Below are positions 9,642 to 34,736 of a DNA stretch of 49,388 nt, piece by piece. This DNA is from a virus. The translations under genes and the position numbers were made by a program. The stretch covers positions 1 to 49,388 of the IMG/VR virus record IMGVR_UViG_3300014838_000030; one strand, given 5' to 3'. How positions within the stretch are numbered: position 1 is the first letter of the stretch; every line of letters starts with the position of its first letter. The notes below the pieces were generated by a model that worked only from the letters and a program-made list of their open reading frames with translations, made no database searches and was not told the DNA's origin.

Positions 9642-9658
9642 ATTTTACCTCTATTTTT

Positions 9659-9686
9659 AGAATACTATTTCCATAATAAATGTCAA
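9659..9686 (-). promoter_or_regulatory. Promoter of the 219-aa gene
   Basis: Minus strand: -35 TTGACA (9686-9681), 16-nt spacer, -10 TATTCT (9664-9659), 18 nt from the start codon at 9641. It lacks the palindrome of sites A-C, so this gene is probably under different control from the operon just downstream. Confidence 0.55.
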
Positions 9687-9724
9687 TCGCCATTATTGAG
9701 CTAATTTTCTAAATTTTAAGGGCG

Positions 9725-10040
9725 ATACCCCGTCCCGTTGAAAAAGGCTCGGGGTGACGGGCATTCTTTTTAATCAAAGGTTTACGAATACCCCGCGAGT
9801 GCAACCCTATTCGACGGCTGGGCCAAAAAACACATATTCATTTTTTTATTTTAGTTTAGATATTTAGTATCATTAATCGTTCTAAATATCTAAACTAAAA
9901 TATACTATTTATATACATACTTTATTCCTATACATTTGATTTTATCTACGGGGTATAGGGGTAAAAGGTACTTAAAGTGTTTAGAATCAACATACCCCGT
10001 CAAATACCCTGACGGTACACCGAAGGTTATAGCGGGGTAT
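9725..10040. repeat. ATACCCCG iteron cluster (5 exact copies) in noncoding region
   Basis: The 432-bp stretch 9642-10073 holds no convincing gene and is strikingly AT-rich in its middle. The octamer ATACCCCG occurs at 9725-9732, 9788-9795 and 9992-9999 on the plus strand, and as CGGGGTAT at 9949-9956 and 10033-10040; ATACCCTG at 10004-10011 is a variant. Small hairpins involve the copies (CCCGTC/GACGGG at 9729-9734 and 9756-9761; CCGTCA/TGACGG at 9997-10002 and 10010-10015). The site lies just upstream of the terminase small subunit gene, a usual place for a packaging (pac/cos) site; iterons plus AT-rich DNA equally suit a replication origin. Confidence 0.7.
9847..9902. other. Perfect 21-bp AT-rich inverted repeat
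   Basis: Left arm 9847-9867 and right arm 9882-9902 are exact reverse complements (right arm reads CTAAATATCTAAACTAAAATA), with a 14-nt spacer 9868-9881. It lies between iteron copies two and three. A run of T at 9841-9847 adjoins the left arm, so it might terminate leftward-facing transcripts, but it is more AU-rich than normal terminators. Origin, packaging-initiation or bidirectional terminator roles are all possible. Confidence 0.8.
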
Positions 10041-20205: not shown

Positions 20206-20565
20206 ATGCAAACTATCACCATCGGATCGAAGCTCCCATTCGGCTTCATCCTCAAGAATCCAATCGATCCTACCCAAACCGTCACCATCAAGGGGCTGAA
20301 TAGCGCGCCTAAAGGTCGCAATGGTGTGCTCATGCAACTACCATATGTGACCACTGAAGTCGATAAGGACTTCTGGGACTTGTGGTACGCGATGCACACC
20401 AGCAACCCTCAATATCACTTCGGTCCTCTGAAGTCCGGGGCCTTGTTTGTGGCCGGAAGCTCCGATCGAGCTGAAGCAGTTTATCGCGAGCGTGAGAGGG
20501 AAAAGACCGGCATGGAGGGCCTGACTCCTGAGGACTACAACATCAAGACAAGGACGGATGACTGA
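20206..20565 (+). CDS. Hypothetical head protein (119 aa)
   Basis: ATG 20206 has GAGAGGGG 6 nt upstream. The protein has a beta-rich start (MQTITIGSKLPFGFILKNPI), a D-K-D-F-W-D-L-W-Y segment and a charged helical end (AEAVYREREREKTGMEGLTP). In related phage orders a small conserved protein lies between capsid and DUF4054 genes. Its stop overlaps the next start by 1 nt (TGATG). Confidence 0.7.
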   Translation: MQTITIGSKLPFGFILKNPIDPTQTVTIKGLNSAPKGRNGVLMQLPYVTTEVDKDFWDLWYAMHTSNPQYHFGPLKSGALFVAGSSDRAEAVYREREREKTGMEGLTPEDYNIKTRTDD

Positions 20566-21254
20566 TGGCATTCAATGGTGGGGGGATTGCTGTATTTAAT
20601 TTGCAGCAATTCCTCCTGCTGTACCCTGAGTTCTCGCAGGTTGATCCGAATAAGCTACAAGCTTATTTCAGTGCTTTTGCTCCTCTGTATTTGAGCAATT
20701 CGCCGAACAGCCCTGTATGCGACCTCACTCGCCGCCTAACGCTCCTTAATATGCTGGTAGCACATATCAGCTATCTCAAAGGTGACCTGGATGCTGTAGC
20801 CATCGCGCCAGCCCCTGCATCCGCCACTCTCAACGTGACCGCGCCTACTGCCGGTAATTTCGTCATCTCGCACGGGCTCGGGGTAGTTCCCGCGTCCGTC
20901 GATATTGAAATGACAAGTTCGGGGGCTATTTGGCAGACGCAAGCTTCCGATGCCACCAATCTCTATCTCAGCGCCTCCGATGCTAACGTCACCGCCGATG
21001 TATATGTCTACCAAGACTCACAGATCACTAGCGGCAATGGAGCAGCGCGGCCTGTAGGGCGCACCAGCAACGCCTCAGAGGGTTCTGTGAGTGCTGGGTT
21101 CGATTACCCCGTAGGAAGCTCGGCAAGCGCGGCATTCTTCGCGCAGTCGCAGTATGGGGCGATGTTCTGGCAGGCGACAAGTTCTATGCGCGGATTTCGA
21201 TATGCTGCCGGTCCTACCCCCGGTTATCCCATTCGCCCTATGGGTTCACGATGA
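20565..21254 (+). CDS. DUF4054 head-tail connector with inserted HGLG module
   Basis: 229 aa. The DUF4054 core is split: residues 1-80 (FLLLYPEFSQVDPNKLQAYF ... RRLTLLNMLVAHISYLKGDL) and 155-229 (RPVGRTSNASEGSVSAGFDY, then YGAMFW and YAAGPTPGYP). Between them (about 88-149) lies an extra beta domain, FVISHGLGVVPASVDIEMTS, then DATNLYLSASDANVTADVYVY. The same module recurs in the genes at 21799 and 27988. The connector closes the head for tail joining; the insert would project from its surface. Confidence 0.82.
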   Translation: MAFNGGGIAVFNLQQFLLLYPEFSQVDPNKLQAYFSAFAPLYLSNSPNSPVCDLTRRLTLLNMLVAHISYLKGDLDAVAIAPAPASATLNVTAPTAGNFVISHGLGVVPASVDIEMTSSGAIWQTQASDATNLYLSASDANVTADVYVYQDSQITSGNGAARPVGRTSNASEGSVSAGFDYPVGSSASAAFFAQSQYGAMFWQATSSMRGFRYAAGPTPGYPIRPMGSR

Positions 21255-21802
21255 AGCGCGGCCATAACATCCCAATCGGAGATAGCGTCAACAACAAGCT
21301 ACTTGAGATTGCTAAGAAGTTTGGGGGCGGTCATGTTCGCGTTGGTTTTCTTGAGGACAAGAAATATCCGGATGGCACATCTGTGGCGCAAGTTGCGTTC
21401 TGGGATGAGTTCGGCCACGGTGGGCCATTTCCCGCCCCACCGAGACCTTTCTTTCGCACGATGGTGACGAAATACTCCCCCCAATGGCCCACTCAACTCG
21501 CAGCCCTTGCAGAGAAATATGATTACGACGGAACTGTGATTCTCGCTGCGATGGGGAAGATTTTAGAGGAGCAATTGCGAGTGAGTATTCTCGACACCAA
21601 CTCGCCGGCACTCTCGCCTACGACTGTGTTGCTGCATTCCCGTTTCCCAGGTACAGGCGAGTTCAGCGTCACTATCGAAGATGTTTTGCAAGCCCAAAGG
21701 GACATCAAAGCAGGCGTCGAAGGGCCTTCGGGAACCGTCGCAAAGCCTCTGGTATGGAGCGGTACTATGCTGGGCGCGGTTGGTTCGGAGGTGACAAAGT
21801 GA
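21251..21802 (+). CDS. HK97 gp10-like neck/tail completion protein
   Basis: 183 aa, ATG overlapping the upstream stop. It shows the family pattern: VRVGFLEDKKYPDGTSVAQV then AFWDEFGHGG...PAPPRPFFRTMV (V-x-x-G ... A-x-x-x-E-F-G ... P-P-R-P-F), plus the C-terminal PLVWSGTMLGAV (L-W-x-G-x-(M/L)). These proteins sit at the head-tail interface. The stop overlaps the next start (GTGA). Confidence 0.78.
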   Translation: MKRGHNIPIGDSVNNKLLEIAKKFGGGHVRVGFLEDKKYPDGTSVAQVAFWDEFGHGGPFPAPPRPFFRTMVTKYSPQWPTQLAALAEKYDYDGTVILAAMGKILEEQLRVSILDTNSPALSPTTVLLHSRFPGTGEFSVTIEDVLQAQRDIKAGVEGPSGTVAKPLVWSGTMLGAVGSEVTK

Positions 21803-22410
21803 ACCTTCGACAAATCGTAAATCCCCTCACATCCACCGTAAACTCCAACATCCTCGTTACGCTTCAAATTTCCAATGGATACAGTATCGGTGCAGGTCAA
21901 CGCCAGATGCCGCTCTACAAGCCGGCCATCACCGGCATCGCTCAAATTCAAGCTCTGGACGGAAGCGATTTAAGGCAGATTGAAAATCTTAATATTCAAG
22001 GCACACTGCGATCGCTTTACCTATATGGGGGCCTCGCGGGCGTAATGCGTTCGGATAGTAAGGGTGGGGATATAATCACAATCAAGAGTGGCCGCCCGAA
22101 GATTGCGAGCATCCCCTTTACCGCTTCACAAACTGGGGTGATTTCAGTCCCTCACGGCTTGGGAGTCGCACCCGATCAGGTGAAGATACTTACGACCAGC
22201 GCAGGATCATTATGGCAACCAGTGGCCGCAGATGCCGTCAATGTCTATGTACAGGGGAGTGAAGTAGGGGCGAGTGCTATCATTACTGCGATTTCTAACG
22301 GTGTGCCTCAGAATCGCAACGTATCTCATTTGACTGCCGGGACTTGGTTGGTTGAAAAGGTTCTTGAATCCTGGTCCGATTGGACGAAAGTAGTGGTGAG
22401 GAAACAATGA
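21799..22410 (+). CDS. Neck/tail joining protein with inserted HGLG module
   Basis: 203 aa. GTG 21799 is chosen for the GGAGGTG upstream and GTGA overlap. Residues 1-100 (MNLRQIVNPLTSTVNSNILV ... GVMRSDSKGGDII) and 175-203 (TWLVEKVLESWSDWTKVVVR) belong to a small phage protein family whose ends normally adjoin. Residues about 103-166 are an HGLG module: ISVPHGLGVAPDQVKILTTS, DAVNVYVQGSEVGASAIITA. Second of the three host proteins of this module. Role likely head-tail completion. Confidence 0.72.
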   Translation: MNLRQIVNPLTSTVNSNILVTLQISNGYSIGAGQRQMPLYKPAITGIAQIQALDGSDLRQIENLNIQGTLRSLYLYGGLAGVMRSDSKGGDIITIKSGRPKIASIPFTASQTGVISVPHGLGVAPDQVKILTTSAGSLWQPVAADAVNVYVQGSEVGASAIITAISNGVPQNRNVSHLTAGTWLVEKVLESWSDWTKVVVRKQ

Positions 22411-22949
22411 GCACAATCCCTCTATATTTTCCCTCTATCAGCGTCGATGCGGTCATTGAAGCTCTGACGGCTTTCCTCACTCCATTTGTACCCACCGGAT
22501 GTCCTATCGTGAGGGGATGGCAGAACAGAGTATCTCCCCCATTCACGGCAGCGGCCTCAGATCCACTCGCTTTCGTCAAGCTCTCCGAGGTCAACCAAGT
22601 TGACCTTGAGACGCCTCAGATGGTCCAAAGTTCGGACCCTTCCATTCAGCAAGCGACCGTCCTTACTCCTACCCGAGTAGACGTTCAAATCGACTTTTAT
22701 GGACTCATGGCCGGGGATTATTGCAAGGCAGTGAAAGCGGTTTTCCGTTCCCCCTATTGCCCGGATCAATTTCCCGATGGCATCGCGCCTCTATACTGTG
22801 GGGATGCTATTCGAGGCGCGCTGGTGACTGGTGAGGATCAATATGAAGATCGTTGGTTAGTTACGGCATCTTTGCAATATAATCCCACTGTGACCGTCCC
22901 ACAACAATCCGCCACTGTAATTATGGTTGGCACTGAGGTTTATCAATGA
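22407..22949 (+). CDS. Neck/tail terminator protein (gp12-like)
   Basis: 180 aa from ATG 22407, overlapping the previous stop (ATGA) behind GAGGAAA. The segment SPPFTAAASDPLAFVKLSEV and TPTRVDVQIDFYGLMAGDYC resembles the phage neck terminator family, which caps the tail tube at the head-proximal end. Order (connector, gp10-like, this, sheath) fits. Confidence 0.72.
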   Translation: MSTIPLYFPSISVDAVIEALTAFLTPFVPTGCPIVRGWQNRVSPPFTAAASDPLAFVKLSEVNQVDLETPQMVQSSDPSIQQATVLTPTRVDVQIDFYGLMAGDYCKAVKAVFRSPYCPDQFPDGIAPLYCGDAIRGALVTGEDQYEDRWLVTASLQYNPTVTVPQQSATVIMVGTEVYQ

Positions 22950-24487
22950 CTATTCCCTCATCTCAATTTGTCGGAGCAACCCCCAGCGTACTCAATGCCG
23001 GAGGTGCCGGTCTGGTCCTTAATGGCCTATTTATGACCGAAAGTTTGCTGATGCCAACAGGGACGGTTTCCAGTTTCTCAGGTTCAAGCGCAGTGGGAGC
23101 TTTCTTCGGTTTGGCTTCACCTGAATACGCGGCCTCTTTGATCTATTTCGCCGGATATAGTACGGCTACTCTTGCTCCTTCGGCGATGCTTTTTGCTCCT
23201 TATAATGCGGCTAATCGAGCTGGATTCGTCAATTCAGGGAGTTGGCTAAATACTCCCTTAGCTACGCTTACTGCGATTACGCCAGGTACGCTCACCGTTA
23301 CTGTCGCTGGGGTAGCAGAGACTTCCAGCAGCATCAATCTTTCGGCTGCTAGTAGTTTCAGCAACGCAGCCGCTCTCATCAGTGCGGCATTCACCTCTCC
23401 TGTTTTTGCGGTAACTTTCAGCGCTACAAGCGGTCAATTCATCATCACCAGCACGGCGACTGGGGCGAGCGAAACGGTCATTTTTCCGACTGGCACTATT
23501 GCCGCCGGACTTCTGTTTACTCAGGCTACGGGAGCTACACTATCCCAAGGGGCGGCACTCGATACTCCGACTTCCGCAATGGCAAATGCCTGGGCACATT
23601 CTCAAAATTGGGAATCGATGGTTACCTTATTCGAACCGAATCTAGCCAACAAAGAACTTTTCGCGGCCTGGTTTACAGCTCAGTCGGAAAACGTAGTTTG
23701 GTTGGCTTGGGATAGTGATGCACAAGCAAGCGTTAGTGGCGCTACAGAGCCGTTTGGGGTAGTTGCTATTGCGAATGCCTATAACGGTCTCGCTTGCATT
23801 GGTGGCGACCCTGCGATCCTTAATTTGTCCACTACGCCCGTAGGTTCCACTCTCGCTAGCCTAGTGATGAATATCGCCATTTTCATTTCTGGGGCAATCG
23901 CCTCTATCAACTTCAACGAAGAAAACGGGAAAACAAATTTAACTTTCCTTTCACAATCAGGATTAACTCCAGCTTGTGCAAATCAGCAAACCTATCAGAA
24001 TCTCGTGGCCAACGGGTATTCGACATATTGCGCCGTAGCGACTCGCAATCAAGGGTTTAATTTTTTCGCGAACTCCAACATGCCCGGCATCTTCCCCTGG
24101 CTTAACACTTTCATCGGGAATGCCTGGTTGAGCGATCAGCTCAATGTTGCCAATCTAACATTGCTCACTACCGTCGGGTCTCTGGCGTACAATGCCAACG
24201 GGTATGGGCTGCTTCGCACCGCGCTTGTCGGAGGCCCTATCGCGGCCGCTCTCAATTTCGGCCAAATTCAGACTGGCGTAACTCTTTCCAGTAGTCAAAT
24301 TGCCGACATTACCAGCAAACTCGGGGCGAGCTATGCCACGCTCATATCGACTCAAGGGTACTATCTCCAGATTCAAGACCCTGGGGCAACGGTGCGGCAA
24401 CAGCGCGGTACTCCGATTGTCAATCTTTACTACACTGACGGCGGCAGCATTCAATCAATCCAGATGGGTTCGATCGACGTACTCTAG
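22946..24487 (+). CDS. Contractile tail sheath (DUF3383-like)
   Basis: 513 aa, starting in overlap with the terminator gene. Sheath-like features: LVLNGLFMTESLLMPTGTVS, SSAVGAFFGLASPEYAASLI YFAGY near the N-terminus; an internal immunoglobulin-like insert (about 110-200); and a conserved C-terminus, PGATVRQQRGTPIVNLYYTD GG. The DUF3383 family forms the contractile sheath in Bcep781-like phages, so the virion is a myophage. Confidence 0.85.
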   Translation: MTIPSSQFVGATPSVLNAGGAGLVLNGLFMTESLLMPTGTVSSFSGSSAVGAFFGLASPEYAASLIYFAGYSTATLAPSAMLFAPYNAANRAGFVNSGSWLNTPLATLTAITPGTLTVTVAGVAETSSSINLSAASSFSNAAALISAAFTSPVFAVTFSATSGQFIITSTATGASETVIFPTGTIAAGLLFTQATGATLSQGAALDTPTSAMANAWAHSQNWESMVTLFEPNLANKELFAAWFTAQSENVVWLAWDSDAQASVSGATEPFGVVAIANAYNGLACIGGDPAILNLSTTPVGSTLASLVMNIAIFISGAIASINFNEENGKTNLTFLSQSGLTPACANQQTYQNLVANGYSTYCAVATRNQGFNFFANSNMPGIFPWLNTFIGNAWLSDQLNVANLTLLTTVGSLAYNANGYGLLRTALVGGPIAAALNFGQIQTGVTLSSSQIADITSKLGASYATLISTQGYYLQIQDPGATVRQQRGTPIVNLYYTDGGSIQSIQMGSIDVL

Positions 24488-24506
24488 CCTCATGGGAGCA
24501 TAAGCA

Positions 24507-24938
24507 ATGTCCGATATTACCAGTGCAAATTCTATCGTTTCTATAACTGTCGCCGGCCTGTACACAACTCCCGTCATTCTTGAGGGATATTCGGCGGATT
24601 CAGCTTGGAATAGCGACAACCGGACCGGGGCTGAAGTACAGCGAGGAGTCGACGGAAGGCAGACTGCCGGTGTTGTTAAAAATCCCACAAAGCAGACCTT
24701 CCATTTTCAAGCAGACTCTCCCAGTGTGGCTGTTTTCGAAGCCATCGACACGGCTCAAGACATTACGAACACCATCTACTACATTTCGGCTACCATCACT
24801 TTGCCTGGGCCAGGAAAGGTCTACAGCGGAGTTCGGGGGGTGCTTACGGACGTAAAGCCGATCCCTGATGCCGGCAAGGTCTTGCAGGCTGTCGAGTACG
24901 TCATCTCCTGGGAAAGCTTGAGGTCTTCCATTGCGTAA
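24507..24938 (+). CDS. Tail tube protein (DUF3277-like)
   Basis: 143 aa directly after the sheath gene. The pattern (SIVSITVAGLYTTPVILEGY SADSAWNSDN, GVDGRQTAG, PSVAVFEAIDTAQD, GVLTDVKPIPDAGKVLQAVEYVIS) is that of small beta-barrel tube proteins. Hexameric rings stacked inside the sheath would form the DNA channel. Its stop overlaps the TTG start of the chaperone gene. Confidence 0.8.
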   Translation: MSDITSANSIVSITVAGLYTTPVILEGYSADSAWNSDNRTGAEVQRGVDGRQTAGVVKNPTKQTFHFQADSPSVAVFEAIDTAQDITNTIYYISATITLPGPGKVYSGVRGVLTDVKPIPDAGKVLQAVEYVISWESLRSSIA

Positions 24939-25401
24939 GGTAATCACGTATTCAATCGCGTCAGAAGGGCGAGATGCGGGGAAGCTCTTTCAGCTTACTG
25001 AGATGAGCGCGTCCAAAGGGGAAGCGTGGGCATTGCGCGTGTTCATTGGGCTTCTGCAAGGCAACGTGAATATTCCACCCGGCATATTCGAAAATCTCGG
25101 GATGGCTGCACTTGCTGAGTTCGGTATGCGAGCACTTACCACCCTCAAGTGGGATGTCTTGGAACCATTGCTCCGAGAGATGTTTGAAGGAGTGCAGATA
25201 ATTCCTGATCCCAAAGTTTTAACGGTGGTGCGAGGTTTACAGGGGGAAGATGGGGATTATGACATTGAGGAGGTCCCTACTCGGGTCGAACTTCGCATTC
25301 AAATTTGGAATTTGAACATGGGTTTTTTGAAGGCCGCGCTCGCATTCCTCCAGCATCAAGTAGAGGGCGTGGCCACAAAGCATTCTCATACAAAAGCGTA
25401 A
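24931..25401 (+). CDS. Tail assembly chaperone (G-type)
   Basis: 156 aa starting at TTG 24931, inside the end of the tube gene. Position between tube and tape measure identifies it as the tail assembly chaperone (E/G/gpG class). The zero-frame ends HSHTKA followed by TAA. Just before the stop lies A-AAA-G (25392-25396), and the -1 frame stays open to 25541, as expected for a programmed frameshift giving a longer G-T form. Confidence 0.75.
   Translation: MRKVITYSIASEGRDAGKLFQLTEMSASKGEAWALRVFIGLLQGNVNIPPGIFENLGMAALAEFGMRALTTLKWDVLEPLLREMFEGVQIIPDPKVLTVVRGLQGEDGDYDIEEVPTRVELRIQIWNLNMGFLKAALAFLQHQVEGVATKHSHTKA
25390..25396 (+). other. Probable -1 ribosomal frameshift site
   Basis: Zero-frame codons ACA-AAA-GCG-TAA. 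Slippage of AAA back by one on the A-AAA-G run enters the -1 frame (AAA AGC GTA AGC), which reads on through 25541. The A-AAA-G tetramer is a known efficient -1 slip sequence in bacteria, and the in-frame stop two codons later would give the pause or terminate unshifted ribosomes. Confidence 0.55.
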
Positions 25402-25541
25402 GCAATGTCATCGGCGTTCTAGTGTCTCGTCGAATGGCGACTTTGCATGAACTCGATACGGTTTACGGTGTGGAGGATGCCTATAACCTTTTGGAGATCA
25501 TAAAGGTTGATGATTACAACAATCGACCGAAGGATGACTAA
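25392..25541 (+). CDS. Tail assembly chaperone, -1 frame extension (T-type)
   Basis: About 49 residues in the -1 frame: SVSNVIGVLVSRRMATLHEL, DTVYGVEDAYNLLEIIKVDD YNNRPKDD. The LHELDTVYG-x-ED-x-(Y/F)-x-LLEIIxVD pattern is typical of the T domain of phage chaperone fusions that contact the tape measure. An internal ATG at 25434 has no binding site, so fusion by frameshift is favoured. Its stop overlaps the tape measure start (TAATG). Confidence 0.62.
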   Translation, partial: KSVSNVIGVLVSRRMATLHELDTVYGVEDAYNLLEIIKVDDYNNRPKDD

Positions 25542-27343
25542 TGCCCACCATAATCGATTCCTTGACGGTAATGCTGGGCCTCGATAGTAAAGGTCTACAA
25601 CAAGGAGCGTCTAAAGCCAAACAAGATTTAGATTCGATTGAGAAGAGCGCGTCGAAGACTGAGAAAACTGTAGGGGGCTTGCATACCGGCCTGGTCACGC
25701 TACTTTCACTCATTGGCGGAACGATGGCCATCAAGGGTTTCGTGCAAGACTTTATTGATACAAACGCTCAACTTGATAGGTTATCCAAGAATCTCGCTGT
25801 CAGTGTTTCCGGCATCACGCAATGGGGGAATGCCGTAGAGCACGTCGGAGGTTCGGCGCAGGGTTTTCAAAGCACCTTGACGATGCTATCTAAAGCCCAG
25901 ACGCAAATGAAACTAACGGGTGAATCTAGCCTAATTCCCTACTTCAGCATGATGGGTATTTCGATGGTGGGGGTGGGCGGGAAGGCCCGCACGGTGACAG
26001 ATGAGCTTCTAGATATGGCGAGCTTTGCGGAGGGCAAGGACCGCCCCACAATGCACAATATGTTTGCCATGATGGGCATTGACGAAGGTACGATCAATCT
26101 TCTGCTAACTGGTCGCAAAGAGCTTGAAATTACACTCGCTCGACAGAAGGCTTATGGAGATCAACTCGCGAAACTCACACCGGCAGCCACTCGATTACAG
26201 GATAGTATTGTTGGCCTGAAGCAACAGTTCACACTCTTTGGGCTCGGCCTACTTCAGGACGCTTTGCCTGGGATTGAGGCAATCTTCAAAGGATTGGAGA
26301 GGTTTGGTAACTGGTGCCAGAATAACGAAGAGTTCATCGTCGATTTTCTTAAAGTTATGGGAGTGGGCCTGATAGCTGTGGGATTAGCCGCATCCCCTAT
26401 AACTCTTACAGTCGCCGCAGTGGTAGCTTTGGGAGCTGGGATTGCGCTACTGTGGCAGGATTATCAGGTTTGGAAGCGCGGCGGCGATAGCCTTATCGAT
26501 TGGTCCAAGTGGGAACCGGGAATCAATGCTGCAAAAGAAGGAGTCTTAGGCTTAATTGATTTATTCGATCAGTTAATGTCAAAGATTCATGCACTCGGGA
26601 AGTTAGGGGGAGTTCTTTCCGATCCCTCAAAATCTCCAATTGAAAAGATGAAAGCTGTTTGGGATGTGGTCGCTCGCGATGAAGCTAATTTTGTTCCGAA
26701 TCCAGTTAAACCCGGCATTGCTCCGATAGCTCCTAGTGCCGGCGGTCAGTTCAAAGATCGTGCGATGGCTTATTACATGAAGCGCGGATGGTCGCAAGTG
26801 CAAGCGGCTGGTATTGTCTCTAACCTCATCGCTGAAAGTGGAGGTAATCCTAAGGCAGTCGGAGATAAAGGACAAGCGATAGGTGTTGCTCAATGGCATC
26901 CTGATAGACAAGCTGCTTTCAAAAAATGGTCCGGAGTCGATATTCGCGATTCTACAGAGGGTCAACAACTCGCCTTCGTGCAATATGAATTGACTCAAGG
27001 GGATTACAAAAACGTAGGTAATATTCTGAAACAACAGACCTCGGGCTATAGTTCGGGTTCTACGGTGTCGCGAGGTTATGAGCGGCCCGCAGACGTGATT
27101 GGTGAAGCCAATAGGCGCGGTAACTTTGCCCAGTCTCTTGCGGGTATTCCGATGGCCTCTAATTATGCCGCCACTCCTAGTAGTGGTTCTGCGGCTCAAA
27201 GCGTTAGCAATAGCCGCACTATTAACATAGCCAGTCTTACAATTCATTCGCAGGCAACGGATGCTGCCGGTATCGCCAATGACTTTGCGAATGAACTCGA
27301 TTATCTTCTGGTTTCGCAAGCTAACAGCGGGATGGTTCCCTAA
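25541..27343 (+). CDS. Tape measure protein with C-terminal tail lysozyme
   Basis: 600 aa. N-terminal coiled coil (SKAKQDLDSIEKSASKTEKT), a hydrophobic transmembrane-like stretch about 275-305 (GVGLIAVGLAASPITLTVAA VVALGAG), and at about 400-530 a phage tail lysozyme domain: VQAAGIVSNLIAESGGNPKA followed by GDKGQAIGVAQWHPDRQAAF (catalytic Glu in AESGG; GVAQW). It sets tail length and helps breach peptidoglycan. At 600 residues the tail should be short to medium. Confidence 0.82.
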   Translation: MPTIIDSLTVMLGLDSKGLQQGASKAKQDLDSIEKSASKTEKTVGGLHTGLVTLLSLIGGTMAIKGFVQDFIDTNAQLDRLSKNLAVSVSGITQWGNAVEHVGGSAQGFQSTLTMLSKAQTQMKLTGESSLIPYFSMMGISMVGVGGKARTVTDELLDMASFAEGKDRPTMHNMFAMMGIDEGTINLLLTGRKELEITLARQKAYGDQLAKLTPAATRLQDSIVGLKQQFTLFGLGLLQDALPGIEAIFKGLERFGNWCQNNEEFIVDFLKVMGVGLIAVGLAASPITLTVAAVVALGAGIALLWQDYQVWKRGGDSLIDWSKWEPGINAAKEGVLGLIDLFDQLMSKIHALGKLGGVLSDPSKSPIEKMKAVWDVVARDEANFVPNPVKPGIAPIAPSAGGQFKDRAMAYYMKRGWSQVQAAGIVSNLIAESGGNPKAVGDKGQAIGVAQWHPDRQAAFKKWSGVDIRDSTEGQQLAFVQYELTQGDYKNVGNILKQQTSGYSSGSTVSRGYERPADVIGEANRRGNFAQSLAGIPMASNYAATPSSGSAAQSVSNSRTINIASLTIHSQATDAAGIANDFANELDYLLVSQANSGMVP

Positions 27344-27981
27344 TGTCATCTACTATTGCGCTCGCCAGCATCGGGGAAGTCGGAACTGTCCTTCTGAACG
27401 CCATTCAGAGCCAGACTCAATGGGGCATATTCGATTCAGACGGCAATCAGCTCGGGTCAACTTCAAGTGGCGGAAATGCTTTGCTTACAGCAGTACTTGG
27501 ATCAGGCCCAGTTCTATCTACTAATTCCTTCGAGTTCAAGCGTGAGACGCGGGTATCGGACTTTCCGGTCGAGGACGGGGGATTCGCAAGTTACAACAAA
27601 GTCGTGCTTCCCGGAGAGCCTACGGTACGCTATTGCTTCAGTGGCAGTCTTGCTGACCGTACAAGCTTCCTGACGCAATTGGACGCAGCTTGCCAGTCCA
27701 CAGCGCTCTACAGTGTTGCTACTCCAGAGATCAATTACTACGAATACACAATCGTCGATTACAGCATCATTCGGCGCGCCGATAGTGGGGCCAATATGCT
27801 CATCGTTGAATTGCATCTTCGGGAGATCAGAGAGGTTTCTGTAAGCTATTCAACTACTCAGAGTGCAATCACTAACCCTCAGAATGCAGCATCTTCATCT
27901 GCATCTAGTAGCGGTATTGTGCAACCCTCAACTCCAGGCACTTCGACTTTGAACAGTATCACAACCCAACTGTTTAATTAA
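27343..27981 (+). CDS. Baseplate-associated protein (212 aa)
   Basis: Follows the tape measure with a TAATG overlap. Conserved segment NSFEFKRETRVSDFPVEDGG FASYNKVVLPGEPTVRY, then TPEINYYEYTIVDYSIIRRA D. I have seen this pattern in phage baseplate or hub proteins next to the tape measure in contractile phages, but cannot name the family with certainty. The C-terminus is a Ser-rich tail. Confidence 0.6.
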   Translation: MSSTIALASIGEVGTVLLNAIQSQTQWGIFDSDGNQLGSTSSGGNALLTAVLGSGPVLSTNSFEFKRETRVSDFPVEDGGFASYNKVVLPGEPTVRYCFSGSLADRTSFLTQLDAACQSTALYSVATPEINYYEYTIVDYSIIRRADSGANMLIVELHLREIREVSVSYSTTQSAITNPQNAASSSASSSGIVQPSTPGTSTLNSITTQLFN

Positions 27982-27987
27982 GGTGAT

Positions 27988-29016
27988 ATGCCGCAGACGA
28001 TTCCAATTCAGGCAGTAGCGAATCAGATAGTCCTCTGCGTCTTAGGGGGCCAGAATTGCCAGATCAATATCTATCTACGCAACGACAGCATCTTCGTAGA
28101 CCTGAATTCCAATGGAACCGACATGTGCATCGGTTGCTTAGCTCTAAATGCCGTGCCGATCGATGCTTGCAATTCCTACGATGGCTTCCAAGGAAATCTC
28201 TATTTCATCGACACTCAAGGTACTGACGATCCCGAATACACCGGATTCAATTCCCGTTGGGTGCTGGTTTACCTGACGGCCGCCGAAGTGCTTGAAACTG
28301 CCTTTGCAGCGGTGGGTATCCCGAGTATCTTGCAACTTGCCGAAATATTGCAAATCACTTCATCCTCCGGAGGAAACTTTACTATAGCGCACGGTCTCGG
28401 GGCAGTTCCCCCCGTGCTGGAAATTGTCCCTACATCCTCAGGGGCTATATGGGGTCAAAGCACATTCGCAGATAGTATCAACATCTACCTGGTGGCCTCT
28501 GACGCTGCCGTGAGGGCCACTGTGCTCGTCTACACGCTTCCGACTATAGCTGAGGTAACTAAAGCTAGTCCCGTTGTCCTACCGCCGGCGGCCACTCTTG
28601 CGTTGAGTGCTCCGTCCTATAGTCAGTTTGCTCTACCTCACGGACTCGGTCATATTCCCAGTCTGATTGAGATACTTCCGACATCCTTCGGTTGGGTGTG
28701 GGAATCGGACGCGGCTGACGATAGCAACCTCTACTTTACGGCTTCAGGTGAAGGGGTCACTGCGAAGATAACTGTATTCCGAATGGCCAACACCTCCATA
28801 AACATTACGGAGTCGGCTACTATATTGTCAGTGACTTCGAGTGCCCCCGGTGTCTTCAGTACGCCTCATGGTTTATTGGCGACTCCGAGTCGCATCAACA
28901 TTTTCATGCTTTCGGCCGGTCAGATTATTGCGCAAACGCCAGCATTCGACGCGACCAATGTGTACCTCGATGCTTCCGATACCGGCCTAATCGCACTCGT
29001 TTCTGTCTACGCATAG
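27988..29016 (+). CDS. Baseplate plug-like protein with three HGLG modules
   Basis: 342 aa. Residues 1-100 (QIVLCVLGGQNCQINIYLRN DSIFVDL ... CIGCLALNAVPI ... GFNSRWVLVYLTAAE) resemble the small plug protein of contractile baseplates (cyanophage Pam3 gp18-like), normally about 100-130 aa. Here three tandem modules are appended at about 119-183, 200-265 and 277-342, each with xxHGL(G)xxP, then S-x-G-x-x-W, then D-x-x-N-(I/L/V)-Y and a final V-x-V-(Y/F). They may point outward as host- or fibre-binding domains. Confidence 0.68.
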   Translation: MPQTIPIQAVANQIVLCVLGGQNCQINIYLRNDSIFVDLNSNGTDMCIGCLALNAVPIDACNSYDGFQGNLYFIDTQGTDDPEYTGFNSRWVLVYLTAAEVLETAFAAVGIPSILQLAEILQITSSSGGNFTIAHGLGAVPPVLEIVPTSSGAIWGQSTFADSINIYLVASDAAVRATVLVYTLPTIAEVTKASPVVLPPAATLALSAPSYSQFALPHGLGHIPSLIEILPTSFGWVWESDAADDSNLYFTASGEGVTAKITVFRMANTSINITESATILSVTSSAPGVFSTPHGLLATPSRINIFMLSAGQIIAQTPAFDATNVYLDASDTGLIALVSVYA

Positions 29017-29024
29017 GAGTTCAA

Positions 29025-32000
29025 ATGATCCGTAAATTCGTCATTCTGTGGCTGTTCAGTTGTGTCGCCGCATTGGCTCAAAACCCTCAGTCTCAGCAGG
29101 CCCCTATCTTTGCGGCCAATGCGAAATATACCAACGGCACTGCTCCTGGATATGCCCCTTGCGGGAATGGTGAGACGAATTGCTCATCAGTCACTGGTTT
29201 GAGCTTACAAATTGGACCCGGCACGGCGAATTGCAGTGGGACTATTGTCGAGTATGCCGGCGGTATCTTGACCCTTCCTGCGAGTTCAACCAACTATGTC
29301 TATCTCAATAGTTCCGCAAGTTGCACTCCCGCAACGAAGACAACAGCCTTTGTGTCAAGCGATATTCCTATCGCTAAGATCGTGACAGGCGCATCGAGCA
29401 TTACGACCTTTGATGATGTGAGAACACCCTTCTTCGTTCCCAGCAGCGGGGGCGGCGGAACGCCAGCTAGCCCAAATCTATCGGTCCAATTTAATAATGG
29501 GGGCGTATTCGGCGCGGCTCAGGTTGGCGGACATCTCCAAAATGACTCAATACTACAAACGACGGGGGGTAATATTCTCAATGCGGGCGGAACGGTCAGT
29601 GGGACTACAGGGACCTCATGTTTCGGCGATTCCAATATGGCCGAATTCGGCTTGCCGTCTTACCCCGGACTCTCGCCCGATGGAACATGCCTCGGATTAG
29701 CGAATGACCTAAGCGGAGGCGTCTATACCAATTACGGGACGTCGGGATCAAACGTTGCAGACGGGACAGATATTGTATTCGGAGTATTTCCTACGGTCCC
29801 TGATTATGGTAACACCATCAATATCATGCAGTATGGCACTAACAACGCCAGGGAGGAGCAAAACTGCATCAATGCCGGGACGTGTGCTAATTGGCATCTT
29901 GAATTCCGCGAAACCTTCGAAGCGATGATCGATTGGATAGCTACCAGCAGCACATACAAAACTCTAGCATCGGTCTTTACTCAGACAGGCACGTGGACTT
30001 CACCACAGCAGGTTGCAATCGCAAAAGGCCTATCTTACCCTGGATATGGATACAACGCTGGCGATACACTACAAATCAACTGCTCCTCCGGGACGGGCCC
30101 TGTTCTAACGATCAGTGCCACGTCGAATCTGGTGGTCCCTATTACGGCATGGAGCAATCTTAGCGGAACCTCGCTGACGTTGACGGTTCAGAATCTCTAT
30201 ACAGTTCCCCGAGTTGGAACGCTGATTTCTCTTTCCGGCTTCACCGTCACGCCGGCTCTAAATTCGGTTGCCAATGCGTCGGTCGTTAGTGTGCTGGGAC
30301 AGACCTTTACCGTATCGTTCACCCAAACGCCCGGTTCCAACACCGAATCCGGTACTTCAACAACGGCAAACGGGATCGGAAGTTCGCATATTACAGGATA
30401 CGGTTCAGGGTGTCCTGCATCTACCTATCCTTTCCAAACCTACACCACGACGGCCATTACCGGAACCGGAGCGGGCGCGCTGGTAAATGTCTTCATCTCC
30501 GGGACTACGCCGCTCACTTCATCGACCATTGGCGATACCGCTTACTATATGGTGACTATTCCGCAGAACGGCATACTCGATTTCTGGTATGCCAAATATT
30601 CGACTGGGGGCGGGGCGTTCTCGGTTGGGACAAATCTTAATGGAACTTTGCAAGACGACATCTCCGGGCAGACTAACATTTCCAACGTGGTAATTGGCGA
30701 GGGTTCGTTTTCCTATCCGGTCCAAGGCGCTCTAGCACATTTTCATGGATTGACTCCGGGACCGCAGACAATCACGGTTACTCACGTAAGCGCAGGAACA
30801 GTTGGCTTTTATGGAATTGGATTACCGCCAAACAACATTCTGCGAGGATCGACTGGACCAAACCTCACAATGAGCGGCATTATCCCGCAGCAGATTCAAG
30901 GTACCTCGCAGGATGCGGTAATTGCAGGATGGATTTCGACGTATAACACTTTGGAAAATCAGGCTTATCAGGAAGCGCGGAACGACGGTTTACCTGTCGT
31001 GTTCTTCCTTCCTAAGCTAGATGGTAATCTGGACTTCACTTCGACGACTCCAACAGTGATTAACGGCCAATCTGTCATCGCACCAAACTGTACGGCAAAC
31101 ACCACCCCTCCGCTACATCTCAATGGTGGGTTTGGGTGTGGGCAGGATCATCTAAAGCAACAATTCGAGTATTACAGTCAAGCTTTTGGCGTAGGTAATA
31201 CGGTTCTAGCGAATGCGAACAATATTCAGGCAAACATGCCACAGCAGACTTCTTTGGGTCAAGGTGTGATTGGAAATGGCTTAGGAGTCATCGGCGCAGG
31301 ATCAGACTTCGCGCCGGGATTGTGGGTTTTGTCGAAGAACGGCTCTTTTGCTGGATATGATATGTTTACTCCGGGTATCGTCACTCAATATGGCGGTGGA
31401 CTTCCGGCGAACGGATACGACACCGACTTGGTAGCTCCATCTAACTATGCGCAAGGGATCGACACTTACGCCACAAATCCGACATCTCAAGCTGGGGTCG
31501 TGCGCCAAGTTGGGTACGGCGCTAATGCTTGGGAATTATTCGGTCAGAGCGCGGCGACTTCGGGGGCAGATGCAAGCTCGAACGCTATCGTTTTCTATGC
31601 TCCTGAGTGGAACGGATCGGCTAGCTCCAATATCCCGCTCTTCCAATGTTTTTACAGGCACAGCAGACCGGCAGGAATTTCCAGCCCTCTGTTTGCCTGC
31701 AACTTTGCTAGTACGCAGGCTACGGGAACGCAGCAGTATAGCATCACTGGATCTACGGGGTCCGGCTATCAGTTTAATTTGGGAACTACAGCGAGTGCAG
31801 CAAACAATGTAATAACTTTAGGGACTCCAACTAATAGCGCCGGATGGAACCCCAATGGCGTGAGCGGAACTCCGATGATGGGGGCGAGTACGACACCGAT
31901 AGTGAGCGCGCCGTGTATTGGCACTAACTCATCCGGGCAGGTGGGAGCGGGGACGTGTTCGCTCCCAGCAGGAACGCAATATCAACAGCTCACTTATAAT

Positions 32001-33986
32001 GCCTCCAATGTAGGGGTGGCCGTCAACGGATACGATTCTGGAGCTCCCTCCCTCTCCTACAACAGCGGGGTGAATGCTCGATATGGATTTACCATGCCAA
32101 CTTCGGGATGGGCGTATGAGAAGGTGTTCGACGACTCATACGGTGTGGGCGTCGGCACGGCAGTTCCCAGCTCCACTACCCTAGGCGGGTATGCTTACCA
32201 GTTGAATGCCGCAGTAGGAAGCCCGACATTAACCAATTATTCAGCAGGCGGTTATAGCTCTTGTGATATTGCGAGGACTCAGGTATTCCCGAATGTCAAC
32301 AATGGGGCGACCGGCGTAGGTTTGCAACTATTTGGAGACGCGATCAACGATTATCACTTGTCTAACTCCAGTGGCCCCAGCAATCCATATCAGTACCTCG
32401 CCATCACTAAGAGATGCTGGGAGGCTGAAGCCACTCTGTTGGCTTCCAATCTATCGAACTTTGCCATCCCTGGAACCGGCTTTACCGGCACAAATTGGTC
32501 GAACGATACCACCTTCAGTTCAACGGCAGGCCCTCTGTTTCTCCAAACATCTACAGCATCAGCAACCGCAACGGCCACGATTCCCGGAACAGCGGTTGCC
32601 GGGCAGTCGATTGTTTTTTGGTATCGGATCTACAATTATTCAGCGACCGGAGCCAACTCTCAGAACGCTAACTTTAGTTACCAATTGGATGGGACCAATT
32701 ATTCCTTCAACGTCTCGGCGATGGCAGAAACTCCCATACTGACGGGTGCGAGTACTACGGATTCGCTAGGGGTTATCTTCATTCGCGGCGTTACGGCAGG
32801 GAGCCATACCGTAACATTCAAGGCCAGTTCAACATTGCTTGGCACCGATGTGATCTCGATTGGCCCCGTTGGATATGGTCCTCAGCCATATTCGACTGGC
32901 ACAGGCTGGGCATCGACTGGGAGCGTATGCACCTTCACTGCCGCCAATACGCTTGTAGCAGGGCAGACTTTTTATCCTCAGTCGTTTGCAACCACTACCG
33001 CGCTGAACAGTTCCACCCCTCTCACCGCATTGTCTACCGGGCTGTCATCTTCCCAGGTTGAGGCCAATTGCACTCAGGCATCCGGCAGCGGCACGGAATC
33101 CTTTGTGCTGCAATACGGACCTCCGATACAGGGGCAACCGATAGCCTTTACGCGCGAGGTAGCTTACACCGGAAATGATAATTTGCTGGGTACGACATCA
33201 TCGCAGAAAAAAAACTATTCTCAAACCGGAGACTACTATAACGACGAAATGTCCGGATGGCTGTGGGAGATGCAAAATATCTATGGATTTACCAACATTT
33301 TCCAAGCCAAGATCAGGAACTTCTACAAGGCCACGCTTGCGGAAACCTCAAACATCGTTACGGCGACCACATTGCATCCGAATACGCTTGGTTACAAGAA
33401 CATCACGAACGCATATATGGCTCCGCTAAGTCTCAACCGGCCTCCGAAATTGAATCATGATGCTCGTAGAGATTGGGCATCTTTCCGATATTTGTCCAGT
33501 TCCTATACGGTCGGCACATCCTTCCTTGGATGGGATGATGAAGCCGTCACCATTGCTTCGGCGTTCGGTGCGAACACGCTTTATCTCCCGATTCCTCCCC
33601 AGGATGTTGAATATCCTAATTTCCCCACGGTGACGCCGGGGTTCGGCCATACCTTTTTCTTCAACAATCTCTCAACCAACGTACTCACTCTCGCGGTCTT
33701 TCCGGGACAGGTGAGTTCGTCTGTATTGAATGGACTCGTTCTACCAAACCAGACGGCGATATGCCAGAACACCATAAACCAGAATTACAAATGCAGCACT
33801 ACCGGAAAGGGAACGCTGTTCAATGCGAGTACATTGCCGCTTCCGACTTGTACTTCATCCCTGACTATAGTGCCTGGTTTCTACGTGTCCGATGCTACAA
33901 CGCCGACTTATCTGGGAACCTACAGCGGGGGCGGATCGACATATGCTCCCGTAATGTGCAACGGAACCAATTGGGTAACCTATTAG
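29025..33986 (+). CDS. Giant fibre/depolymerase with two SGNH esterase-like domains
   Basis: 1653 aa with a secretory-like leader (MIRKFVILWLFSCVAALAQN). Domain 1: FGDSN (200-204, nucleophile Ser203), YGTSGSN, GTNNAR (271-276, oxyanion Asn) and GQDHL (706-710, catalytic Asp-His), with a beta-sandwich-like insert at about 480-600. Domain 2: DDSYG (1036-1040), NYSAGG, GDAINDY (1104-1110) and LHPNTLGYKN (1450-1459), again split by a beta-sandwich at about 1150-1285. The C-terminal 150 residues are fibre-like. Likely removes acetyl groups from host surface polysaccharide. The Gly-to-Asp change in GDS leaves domain 2 activity uncertain. Confidence 0.7.
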   Translation: MIRKFVILWLFSCVAALAQNPQSQQAPIFAANAKYTNGTAPGYAPCGNGETNCSSVTGLSLQIGPGTANCSGTIVEYAGGILTLPASSTNYVYLNSSASCTPATKTTAFVSSDIPIAKIVTGASSITTFDDVRTPFFVPSSGGGGTPASPNLSVQFNNGGVFGAAQVGGHLQNDSILQTTGGNILNAGGTVSGTTGTSCFGDSNMAEFGLPSYPGLSPDGTCLGLANDLSGGVYTNYGTSGSNVADGTDIVFGVFPTVPDYGNTINIMQYGTNNAREEQNCINAGTCANWHLEFRETFEAMIDWIATSSTYKTLASVFTQTGTWTSPQQVAIAKGLSYPGYGYNAGDTLQINCSSGTGPVLTISATSNLVVPITAWSNLSGTSLTLTVQNLYTVPRVGTLISLSGFTVTPALNSVANASVVSVLGQTFTVSFTQTPGSNTESGTSTTANGIGSSHITGYGSGCPASTYPFQTYTTTAITGTGAGALVNVFISGTTPLTSSTIGDTAYYMVTIPQNGILDFWYAKYSTGGGAFSVGTNLNGTLQDDISGQTNISNVVIGEGSFSYPVQGALAHFHGLTPGPQTITVTHVSAGTVGFYGIGLPPNNILRGSTGPNLTMSGIIPQQIQGTSQDAVIAGWISTYNTLENQAYQEARNDGLPVVFFLPKLDGNLDFTSTTPTVINGQSVIAPNCTANTTPPLHLNGGFGCGQDHLKQQFEYYSQAFGVGNTVLANANNIQANMPQQTSLGQGVIGNGLGVIGAGSDFAPGLWVLSKNGSFAGYDMFTPGIVTQYGGGLPANGYDTDLVAPSNYAQGIDTYATNPTSQAGVVRQVGYGANAWELFGQSAATSGADASSNAIVFYAPEWNGSASSNIPLFQCFYRHSRPAGISSPLFACNFASTQATGTQQYSITGSTGSGYQFNLGTTASAANNVITLGTPTNSAGWNPNGVSGTPMMGASTTPIVSAPCIGTNSSGQVGAGTCSLPAGTQYQQLTYNASNVGVAVNGYDSGAPSLSYNSGVNARYGFTMPTSGWAYEKVFDDSYGVGVGTAVPSSTTLGGYAYQLNAAVGSPTLTNYSAGGYSSCDIARTQVFPNVNNGATGVGLQLFGDAINDYHLSNSSGPSNPYQYLAITKRCWEAEATLLASNLSNFAIPGTGFTGTNWSNDTTFSSTAGPLFLQTSTASATATATIPGTAVAGQSIVFWYRIYNYSATGANSQNANFSYQLDGTNYSFNVSAMAETPILTGASTTDSLGVIFIRGVTAGSHTVTFKASSTLLGTDVISIGPVGYGPQPYSTGTGWASTGSVCTFTAANTLVAGQTFYPQSFATTTALNSSTPLTALSTGLSSSQVEANCTQASGSGTESFVLQYGPPIQGQPIAFTREVAYTGNDNLLGTTSSQKKNYSQTGDYYNDEMSGWLWEMQNIYGFTNIFQAKIRNFYKATLAETSNIVTATTLHPNTLGYKNITNAYMAPLSLNRPPKLNHDARRDWASFRYLSSSYTVGTSFLGWDDEAVTIASAFGANTLYLPIPPQDVEYPNFPTVTPGFGHTFFFNNLSTNVLTLAVFPGQVSSSVLNGLVLPNQTAICQNTINQNYKCSTTGKGTLFNASTLPLPTCTSSLTIVPGFYVSDATTPTYLGTYSGGGSTYAPVMCNGTNWVTY

Positions 33987-33996
33987 GAGCCTTACC

Positions 33997-34260
33997 ATGA
34001 AAAAAACTCTCACGATCATAGGGATGCTCATTTGCATCGGCATCACCATCTGGTGCTGCTCGGGGTGCTCCAAGCCCAAACCCCTAACAGCGGCCGCTAC
34101 AGCCCCGCCCTTGCATCCCCCCTGCGCAGAGGGCCTCACCTTCGTTTCGTGGATACCGGGAGCGCCTGGACGCCCCGTGGCCTATTCTCACGGCTCCAGT
34201 AGCAGTCGCACGATCATGATTCAGTTCCCTCATGGGTTGCTGGAGTGCAAAAAGCCATGA
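33997..34260 (+). CDS. Small lipoprotein (87 aa)
   Basis: ATG after TTAGGAGCC. N-terminus MKKTLTIIGMLICIGITIWC CSGC-S is a lipoprotein signal with a lipobox-like SGC|S; a Pro-rich segment (PLTAAATAPPLHPPC) follows. It lies between the giant fibre and the sigma-like gene, in the middle of baseplate genes. Lipoproteins near receptor-binding genes sometimes block the receptor after infection (superinfection exclusion); no homology is recognised, so this is only a possibility. Stop overlaps the next ATG. Confidence 0.6.
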   Translation: MKKTLTIIGMLICIGITIWCCSGCSKPKPLTAAATAPPLHPPCAEGLTFVSWIPGAPGRPVAYSHGSSSSRTIMIQFPHGLLECKKP

Positions 34261-34736
34261 GTCCTGAAGAATCGCTCGCATGGCCCACGTTGCGAGTGCT
34301 TGCATGGAAGGCATATCGCATGTTTGCTCCAGTACTGGGTAACTCTGCCGATATGGAAGACTTTTGGATGATTGGAGTAATGGCCGTTATTGGTCGGGAT
34401 AAATCCAGATTGGCCCGCATTGTCGCTATGCGCCGGATGATCGACTATGGGCGGAAAATGGTAGGCCGGCATGAGCAGTTGAATTTCGTATCTTTAGAGG
34501 GGGAATTGGCAGCTCCGGTGATGAATCGGGAGATAGCGATCGATGCACAAAATTGGCTTCGAGTGGGACATTTCGGCCTTACTTCAAAAGATCTGGAGAG
34601 GCTAAGGCTATACTTTTGGGAAGGATTCACCTTTAGAGACATGGGACCCTACTCCCAGCATAAGCTCAATCGAGCCATTGAAAAAATACGAAAAGGGATT
34701 CGAATTGAACACGAAAGACCTCAAATTCGTAATTAA
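34257..34736 (+). CDS. Sigma-70-like factor (putative)
   Basis: 159 aa. Region 2-like: ADMEDFWMIGVMAVI followed by RDKSRLARIVAMRRMIDYGR K (compare D-x-E-D-L ... G ... fsTYa..-I-R-r-x-x-x-D-x-x-R). Linker FVSLEGEL (VSL-D/E). Region 4-like: LTSKDLERLRLYFWEGFTFR DMGPYSQHKLNRAIEKIRKG, similar to L-p-x-x-x-R-x-x-x-x-L-r-Y-x-e-G-x-T-x-x-E-I, although the HTH turn looks shortened. It would redirect host RNA polymerase, probably to late genes. Odd place: inside the baseplate cluster, coupled (ATGA) to the lipoprotein. Confidence 0.5.
   Translation: MSPEESLAWPTLRVLAWKAYRMFAPVLGNSADMEDFWMIGVMAVIGRDKSRLARIVAMRRMIDYGRKMVGRHEQLNFVSLEGELAAPVMNREIAIDAQNWLRVGHFGLTSKDLERLRLYFWEGFTFRDMGPYSQHKLNRAIEKIRKGIRIEHERPQIRN

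Follow-up and report, generated by a model that had tools for sequence, protein, structure and literature searches.

The window analysed here, the whole 49,388-nucleotide stretch of viral DNA in IMG/VR record IMGVR_UViG_3300014838_000030, carries a set of neck genes and, further downstream, a baseplate plug gene followed by a long fibre gene. Three of the encoded proteins, the DUF4054 adaptor, the collar/stopper and the baseplate plug, are unrelated to one another, as had been predicted from the sequence, and between them host five homologous segments of about 65 residues each, all in open frames, which we call HGLG modules (borders from an HMM). The features are as follows, with what each rests on in brackets.

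20565-21254, plus strand: head-tail adaptor (DUF4054, E217 gp27 type), 229 aa (PF13262, phrog_302, Foldseek 8fvh_G)
20820-21014, plus strand: HGLG module in the adaptor, between the third core helix and a beta-hairpin (HMM, alignment, model)
21251-21802, plus strand: neck1/tail completion protein, without a module (phrog_222, E 7.2e-27)
21799-22410, plus strand: collar/stopper (phrog_1912; E217 gp28, phage 812 gp97 type), GTG start (phrog_1912, model, Foldseek)
22102-22293, plus strand: HGLG module inside a stopper-barrel beta-hairpin, flanked by GGDIITI and TWLVEKVLE (HMM, alignment, model)
22380-22949, plus strand: neck/tail terminator, without a module (PF23961, E 2e-19)
27988-29016, plus strand: baseplate plug/adaptor (Pam3 gp18 / E217 gp33 type), a core of about 100 aa with three C-terminal modules (PF22479, phmmer)
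28339-28536, plus strand: HGLG module, plug copy 1 (HMM)
28588-28782, plus strand: HGLG module, plug copy 2 (HMM)
28816-29013, plus strand: HGLG module, plug copy 3, at the C-terminal end and directly before the fibre gene (HMM)
29025-33986, plus strand: long fibre/receptor-binding protein, 1653 aa
29025-29474, plus strand: conserved fibre N-terminal domain, proposed partner of the module (alignment, association with the module)

Nine modules from three other phages (L009, L113 and L114) were used to build an HMM, with the window sequence left out. Run against the 624 open reading frames of the window, it recovered all five copies where they had been predicted, the plug giving E 1.8e-75 (three copies), the adaptor 3.5e-25 and the collar 1.3e-13. 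The same HMM had zero matches in 200 rounds of shuffled window reading frames, and the two results together rule out chance similarity. The five modules have 12 invariant columns of the roughly 65 in common, and the copies are 37-52% identical to the first of them.

Taken alone, the module gave only chance-level matches to Pfam, PHROG and the PDB, and when a single plug module was compared by tblastn with 50,697 phage records no credible match was obtained, so the family is known here from uncultured viruses only. None of the five window modules matches the DUF7483 profile (PF24299), a domain of unknown function that is longer than the HGLG module; the copies in locus L170 match positions ~129-189 of the 330 in that profile (30.3 bits, above the cut-off), and those in L154 match the same part below the cut-off. 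The module is a domain absent from the Pfam and PHROGs lists, and now has a name. Over very divergent phages its conserved part consists of the loops HGLG..P, TSxG, D..N.Y and ASD.

Insertion into the neck proteins and fold of the module

In both neck proteins the profile match is split in two around the module and resumes beyond it (adaptor: PF13262, E 4.7e-13, and PHROG 302, E 6.4e-23; collar: PHROG 1912, E 1e-31), which agrees with the earlier view that the flanks read like ordinary family members. The adaptor model matches 8fvh_G in Foldseek (probability 0.98). The collar, for which a start at ATG 21754 was replaced by GTG 21799, is modelled (pLDDT 90.8) as a small beta-barrel with an N-terminal helix, residues 3-14, ahead of the barrel strands; its Foldseek matches include 8qgr (E 5.7e-5), 9b42_A (probability 0.99) and 8fvh_A, the best being the phage 812 stopper over the whole length of the collar. 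The plug retains its N-terminal domain (residues 3-97, PF22479, E 3.5e-15), and phmmer against the PDB matches it to 8env/9b45 (E 0.001).

Alignments of the adaptor and of the collar both show a gap of ~80 columns at the insertion site in relatives without the module, and among the relatives fetched from outside the window lineage no DUF4054 adaptor has a module and no collar has one at its insertion site. In a tree of the adaptor core the insert is a single gain (99/99). The module-free relatives and the single gain rule out the idea that the segment is an integral part of the DUF4054 core, and the forecast that relatives would lack it held for every one fetched from outside this lineage.

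In the structure models the module forms a six-stranded beta-sandwich seated in a core loop of each neck protein, and the compact shared fold that had been anticipated is borne out: a single fold, present as an insert in each of the two neck proteins and as three copies at the C-terminal end of the plug. The original prediction had pointed to decoration domains of Ig-like or beta-sandwich type, of which the beta-sandwich stands and the Ig-like fold is ruled out, as the best Foldseek and BFVD matches are lectin-like domains of fibres and tailspikes. To judge by the models, the fold is closest to these phage fibre and tailspike beta-sandwiches: Foldseek finds the R1/R2 pyocin fibre, the Pam1 tailspike and the K64-1 depolymerase (6ct8, probability 1.00, rmsd 2.3 Å over 73 columns; 7eea, probability 1.00; identity to the matched phage structures 12-16%), with Helix pomatia agglutinin (2ce6) lower at probability 0.54 and 9% identity. 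Some of the BFVD matches are annotated as H-type lectin domains, and none of the five window modules matches a Pfam lectin family. Diphtheria-toxin rows in the Foldseek list, all with probability below 0.2, were disregarded.

Since this is the fold of sugar-binding fibre domains, the module could bind glycans instead of protein, and the modules would then decorate the neck and baseplate with lectins for host surface or capsule sugars, the fibre gene being a fellow member of a host-recognition cassette. The pyocin, tailspike and depolymerase matches, the agglutinin and the annotated H-type lectin domains all speak for such a role, and for the C-terminal domain of the R pyocin fibre, which is lectin-like, binding to LPS has been proposed (PMC6363177, PMC6116203). 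The pyocin and Pam1 domains are the receptor-binding parts of trimeric fibres, and the H-type lectins are secreted. Against such a role, in pyocin fibres the loops that bind sugar are described as variable, whereas the loops of the module are its conserved part. A further argument against sugar binding is the partner with which the module constantly occurs, the N-terminal domain of a fibre and not its receptor part, and we consider glycan binding unlikely on balance.

Pairing of the module with a fibre N-terminus

The fibre gene behind the plug begins with a hydrophobic, signal-like stretch followed, in the alignment, by AQxPQxxxAPxxxxNAKYxNGxAPGY. A search for this N-terminal domain, made without reference to the module, yielded 44 viral loci from IMG/VR. 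A module lies upstream of 33 of the 36 non-identical fibre N-termini, at most 130 nt away in 19 of the 36, and the modules adjacent to a fibre form the tail end of whichever protein precedes the fibre gene. When whole records were searched, modules were found in 29 of the 33 fibre/module records and in none of the 7 control records. The module-free plug relatives (L104-L111 and L116-L118) have no such fibre domain within their loci. The module is therefore present with the matching fibre and absent without it, except at L134, L135 and L161, where no module was detectable near the fibre N-terminus.

The search was also made in the reverse direction. A first degenerate DNA pattern for the module returned nine loci, none with modules; the second succeeded and added L163 and L167, in which the fibre domain lies 59 and 108 nt downstream respectively, and L170, in which the next gene retains only the AQTPPLFSVNAKY leader. 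Scanning genomes with the plug alignment turned up no plugs other than module-free ones from Achromobacter.

The proteins that carry the module differ between viruses. Besides the plug it is appended to a gpJ/megatron-like hub (PF13550), to a baseplate wedge protein (L139) and, in short-tail-like loci, to a protein next to an SU10-type adaptor; in some of the latter it is not adjacent to the fibre and lies 2.4-3.8 kb upstream. Plug, hub, wedge and adaptor neighbour are all proteins that would be expected to carry fibres. In several tail types, then, the module pairs tightly by genomic position with one fibre N-terminus. The rest of the window fibre, residues 151-1653, has no phmmer match among the viral loci compared, window copies aside, and residues 199-308 give a weak GDSL-esterase match below the Pfam cut-off. 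That only the N-terminus is conserved in sequence is as would be expected of an anchor joined to a swapped receptor part.

History of the neck copies and a fibre-docking model

The genomes fall into three nested states: those with none of these features, those with the plug array and fibre, and those that have neck copies in addition. In L009 and L113 a plug array and the fibre are present, yet adaptor and collar are without a module. Only one lineage has neck copies; they were found in no phage lacking the plug array or the fibre, and they form a single clade in the module tree (97/90). The proposal of intragenomic duplication is supported in part: the neck copies have a single origin, and the node linking them to a particular plug copy is weak.

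The best reading of these results is a mobile fibre-dock domain that was first present at the baseplate and was later transplanted into the adaptor and stopper. Each plug subunit would use its three tandem C-terminal modules to hold the N-terminal domain of the fibre encoded by the next gene, and single copies would later have entered external loops of the adaptor and stopper, where they would face outwards. Module copies in these loops would give the neck docks of the baseplate kind, and the neck would probably bear a ring of fibres (whiskers) or else hold the tail fibres folded back. We give this reading a probability of roughly 57%. It agrees with the earlier suggestion of a shared ligand or fibre dock at neck and baseplate, to which the strong genomic link with the conserved fibre N-terminus lends weight; the binding itself is inferred. 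The external domains of phage 812, the fibre docks of T7, KP32 and SU10 adaptors and the dN/dS of the neck modules, all described below, also speak for it. Several observations count against it: all the fibre N-termini read start like Sec signal peptides, an unexpected feature in a virion protein that is assembled in the cytoplasm; only one fibre gene with the conserved N-terminus was found in the window; no module was detectable near the fibre N-termini of L134, L135 and L161; and in some short-tail-like loci module and fibre are not adjacent.

Alternatively the adaptor and stopper copies might dock nothing and instead brace the joint between capsid, neck and tail. The precedent is phage 812, the stopper of which is the best match of the collar: in the available passages of its description (PMC12886913) both adaptor and stopper bear external beta-sandwich domains, as here, the adaptor one contacts the capsid, and the stoppers of E217 and Pa193 have no such domain. 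Those passages report neither a common origin of the two domains nor any tie to a baseplate protein or a fibre gene, and by sequence the module has no match in the PDB beyond chance level. A purely bracing role is improbable: the inserted domain here belongs by sequence to a fibre-accompanying family, and its neck copies are found only alongside the plug array and fibre. Neutral hitch-hiking, in which a fibre-region domain was copied into tolerant loops and does nothing at the neck, would suit loops that accept insertions and copies limited to one lineage, but it is very hard to reconcile with a dN/dS of 0.13-0.19 for the neck modules (close relatives compared) and with the joint retention of both neck copies in every neck-insert genome seen.

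Within the fibre-docking model, rings as in E217 (12 adaptors, 6 stoppers and 6 plug proteins) would give 18 modules at each end, enough for six trimeric fibres with three modules apiece; each fibre would meet two adaptor modules and one stopper module at the neck and, at the baseplate, the three modules of a single plug. Six composite docks at the neck and six three-module docks at the baseplate, with the gene of one trimeric fibre serving both ends of the tail, are a possible but doubtful elaboration, and as the number of modules varies from 1 to 3 between viruses the threefold argument is not general.

If the model is true, transfer of the dock domain to a new ring protein would install a second set of fibres. 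Fibre placement and the gain of fibre sets are mostly known from single structures; here sequence alone yields a portable candidate dock, the module, and the fibre N-terminus that would plug into it, in contractile, hub-type and short-tail-like viruses, and the movement of the dock into the neck rings offers a time-ordered case. Docks and fibres would thereby become annotatable in uncultured viruses, and the origin of neck fibres testable.

Among known systems, the adaptors of T7, KP32 and SU10 carry fibre dock domains, and those of P22 and Sf6, which are without long fibres, lack them (PMC9509320). By analogy the insert described here may be comparable, being likewise an extra domain on a 12-fold adaptor ring, theirs present only with long fibres. 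Those phages have short tails and their fibres start at the adaptor, whereas the window phage has a contractile tail and bears the module at baseplate, adaptor and stopper. In SU10 there are six trimeric fibres per ring, and a trimeric short fibre sits on a quasi-threefold dock made up of three tryptophans from a single nozzle protein (PMC9509320). In RcGTA the megatron Rcc01698 ends in a fibre-binding domain (PMC7296036), which holds the fibre at the hub and comprises ~320 residues, as against ~65 for the module. The module-bearing hub of L128 also matches Rcc01698_C, and its modules follow the Rcc01698-like region, in the position of that domain.

The module copies and their host proteins

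Judged by its genes, the window looks like DNA of a contractile-tailed phage, with head proteins, neck, sheath (phrog_205), tape measure, plug, hub, wedge and fibre. The original prediction that three of its virion proteins share a segment present in five copies held up: alignment and HMM searches, including with a profile free of window sequence, showed the five segments to be real and homologous. HMM search of the window placed these HGLG modules as follows:

20820-21014, module in the adaptor
22102-22293, module in the collar
28339-28536, plug module, copy 1
28588-28782, plug module, copy 2
28816-29013, plug module, copy 3

To avoid circularity, the independent HMM was built from only nine modules of three other phages; among 624 window ORFs it picked out three copies in the plug (1.8e-75) and also matched the adaptor (3.5e-25) and collar (1.3e-13), with zero matches to shuffled ORFs in 200 rounds.

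The first host protein is a DUF4054 head-tail adaptor (PF13262, 4.7e-13; phrog_302, 6.4e-23) whose model resembles the E217 adaptor 8fvh_G (probability 0.98), and the second is a collar/stopper whose model matches the stopper of phage 812 (8qgr, E 5.7e-5) as well as the collars of Pa193 and E217. In both, the family match (phrog_1912 for the collar) is split in two around the module. Residues 3-97 of the third form a Pam3 gp18 plug domain, and the protein is related in sequence to baseplate proteins of PDB 8env and 9b45. Their E217 counterparts are a 12-mer, a 6-mer and a 6-mer, respectively (PMC10329688). The longest collar ORF starts at ATG 21754, overlapping the neck1 gene, and relatives favour GTG 21799 (window 21754-21802).

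When the two neck proteins are aligned with module-free counterparts (30 adaptors, 32 collars), the module stands out as a clean additional block, lying between '...HISYLKGDL' and 'ARPVGR...' in the adaptor and between 'GGDIITI' and 'TWLVEKVLE' in the collar. AlphaFold2 predicts a six-stranded sandwich at both sites, with strands at residues 86-149 of the adaptor (model pLDDT 81.4; module mostly >92 per ten-residue block) and 92-166 of the collar (model pLDDT 90.8).

History of the neck copies

The module was absent from every adaptor and collar found outside the window lineage. In an adaptor core tree built without the insert columns, the three adaptors that bear the insert formed one clade (99/99) nested among module-free relatives, indicating one change. 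In two near relatives (L113 and L009) the plug has its three modules and the fibre is present, with adaptor and collar bare, and the more distant L104 has a bare plug and no fibre of the window type; read in order, these loci suggest that the plug array and fibre were gained first and the neck copies afterwards. Since all six neck modules group in one clade (97/90), in which the collar copies are nested within the adaptor copies, the simplest reading of these sequences is that a single capture was followed by copying into the second ring. Purifying selection acts on the neck modules, with dN/dS at 0.13-0.19.

Genomic pairing with the fibre N-terminus

Among the first loci compared, the window-type fibre start lay directly downstream in all triple-module loci and in none of the module-free plug loci. 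In L114 and L115, from a different phage, a 455-aa protein that does not resemble the plug ends in three modules, and the next gene shares its first ~130 residues with the window fibre, the remainder of which is not conserved. Used alone as query, the fibre N-terminus retrieved 44 viral loci; after identical sequences were merged (n=36), a module lay upstream in 33, its end within 130 nt in 19, and three had no detectable module nearby. Whole-record searches found modules in 29 of 33 fibre/module records versus 0 of 7 controls, and modules in neck genes in only two of the 40 records, both of the window lineage. In the reverse direction, a module DNA pattern led to two loci (L163 and L167), each with the fibre start downstream. 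In a further locus (L170), three modules precede a gene keeping only the leader '...AQTPPLFSVNAKY', so it may be the extreme N-terminus that counts. A tblastn search of 50,697 phage records with one plug module found none in isolates; here it is known from uncultured viruses only.

At L134:3360-5978 a window-type fibre without a module adjoins sugar-epimerase and glycosyltransferase-like genes, a context unlike all others. The window fibre is followed by a small lipoprotein-like ORF (signal stretch, then Cys, e.g. ..GCSKPKP..), present in the relatives read:

33997-34260, window
9566-9844, L098
11225-11602, L099
14268-14597, L100

Fibre and lipoprotein-like ORF separate the plug and hub genes, which adjoin in module-free phages. 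The following ORF (window 34245-34736; no PHROG match) is sigma-factor/helix-turn-helix-like (..RLRLYFWEGFTFRDM..) and lies within the tail gene cluster.

Carriers and a proposed docking role

In the window baseplate the carrier is the plug. Elsewhere the module is borne by gpJ/megatron-like hubs (PF13550; L128, L151, L153 and L154, the L128 hub matching Rcc01698_C at E 1.7e-5, below that family's cut-off), attached to a wedge protein (phrog_120; L139), or within a collagen-type fibre protein (L141). In short-tailed-looking loci it is attached at the N-terminus of a ~455-aa protein weakly resembling the adjacent protein, which is itself a borderline match to SU10_adaptor. Several of these positions bear fibres in known particles: the RcGTA megatron terminates in a fibre-binding domain (PMC7296036), and a long-tail-fibre dock domain is found on the adaptors of SU10, T7 and KP32 but is missing from those of P22 and Sf6, which have no long fibres (PMC9509320).

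With homology, fold, insertion, order of gain and genomic pairing established, the best-supported reading is that the module serves as a dock for the fibre N-terminus, a contact that we infer. The main rival is a lectin role, in which the module would bind sugar, because it shares its fold with sugar-binding fibre domains. Under the docking reading, one fibre type would serve both ends of the tail, and the neck modules would face outward, by analogy with the external beta-sandwich domains on the phage 812 adaptor and stopper (PMC12886913). With E217 ring sizes, there would be 18 modules at each end, or three for every sixth of the ring, which fits six trimeric fibres; the tally is no more than suggestive, since module number varies between carriers and a trimeric fibre is assumed from phage fibres generally. 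In SU10, likewise, one nozzle protein gives a trimeric fibre a quasi-threefold dock (PMC9509320). Docking leaves unexplained that the fibre N-termini examined (window 29025-29085; L126-L161 fibre starts) begin like Sec signal peptides, with a hydrophobic stretch and an AXA-Q like site, which is unexpected in a virion protein.

Stand-alone module ORFs of 77-82 residues lie beside the module-bearing ~455-aa gene at L145:2483-2713, L147:3099-3338, L150:2458-2694 and L159:3113-3358. HNH-like ORFs occur near module genes at L145:2717-3265 (between the stand-alone 77-aa and the module-bearing 455-aa ORFs), L009:13510-14070 and L115:7992-8786, and could help the module spread by homing.
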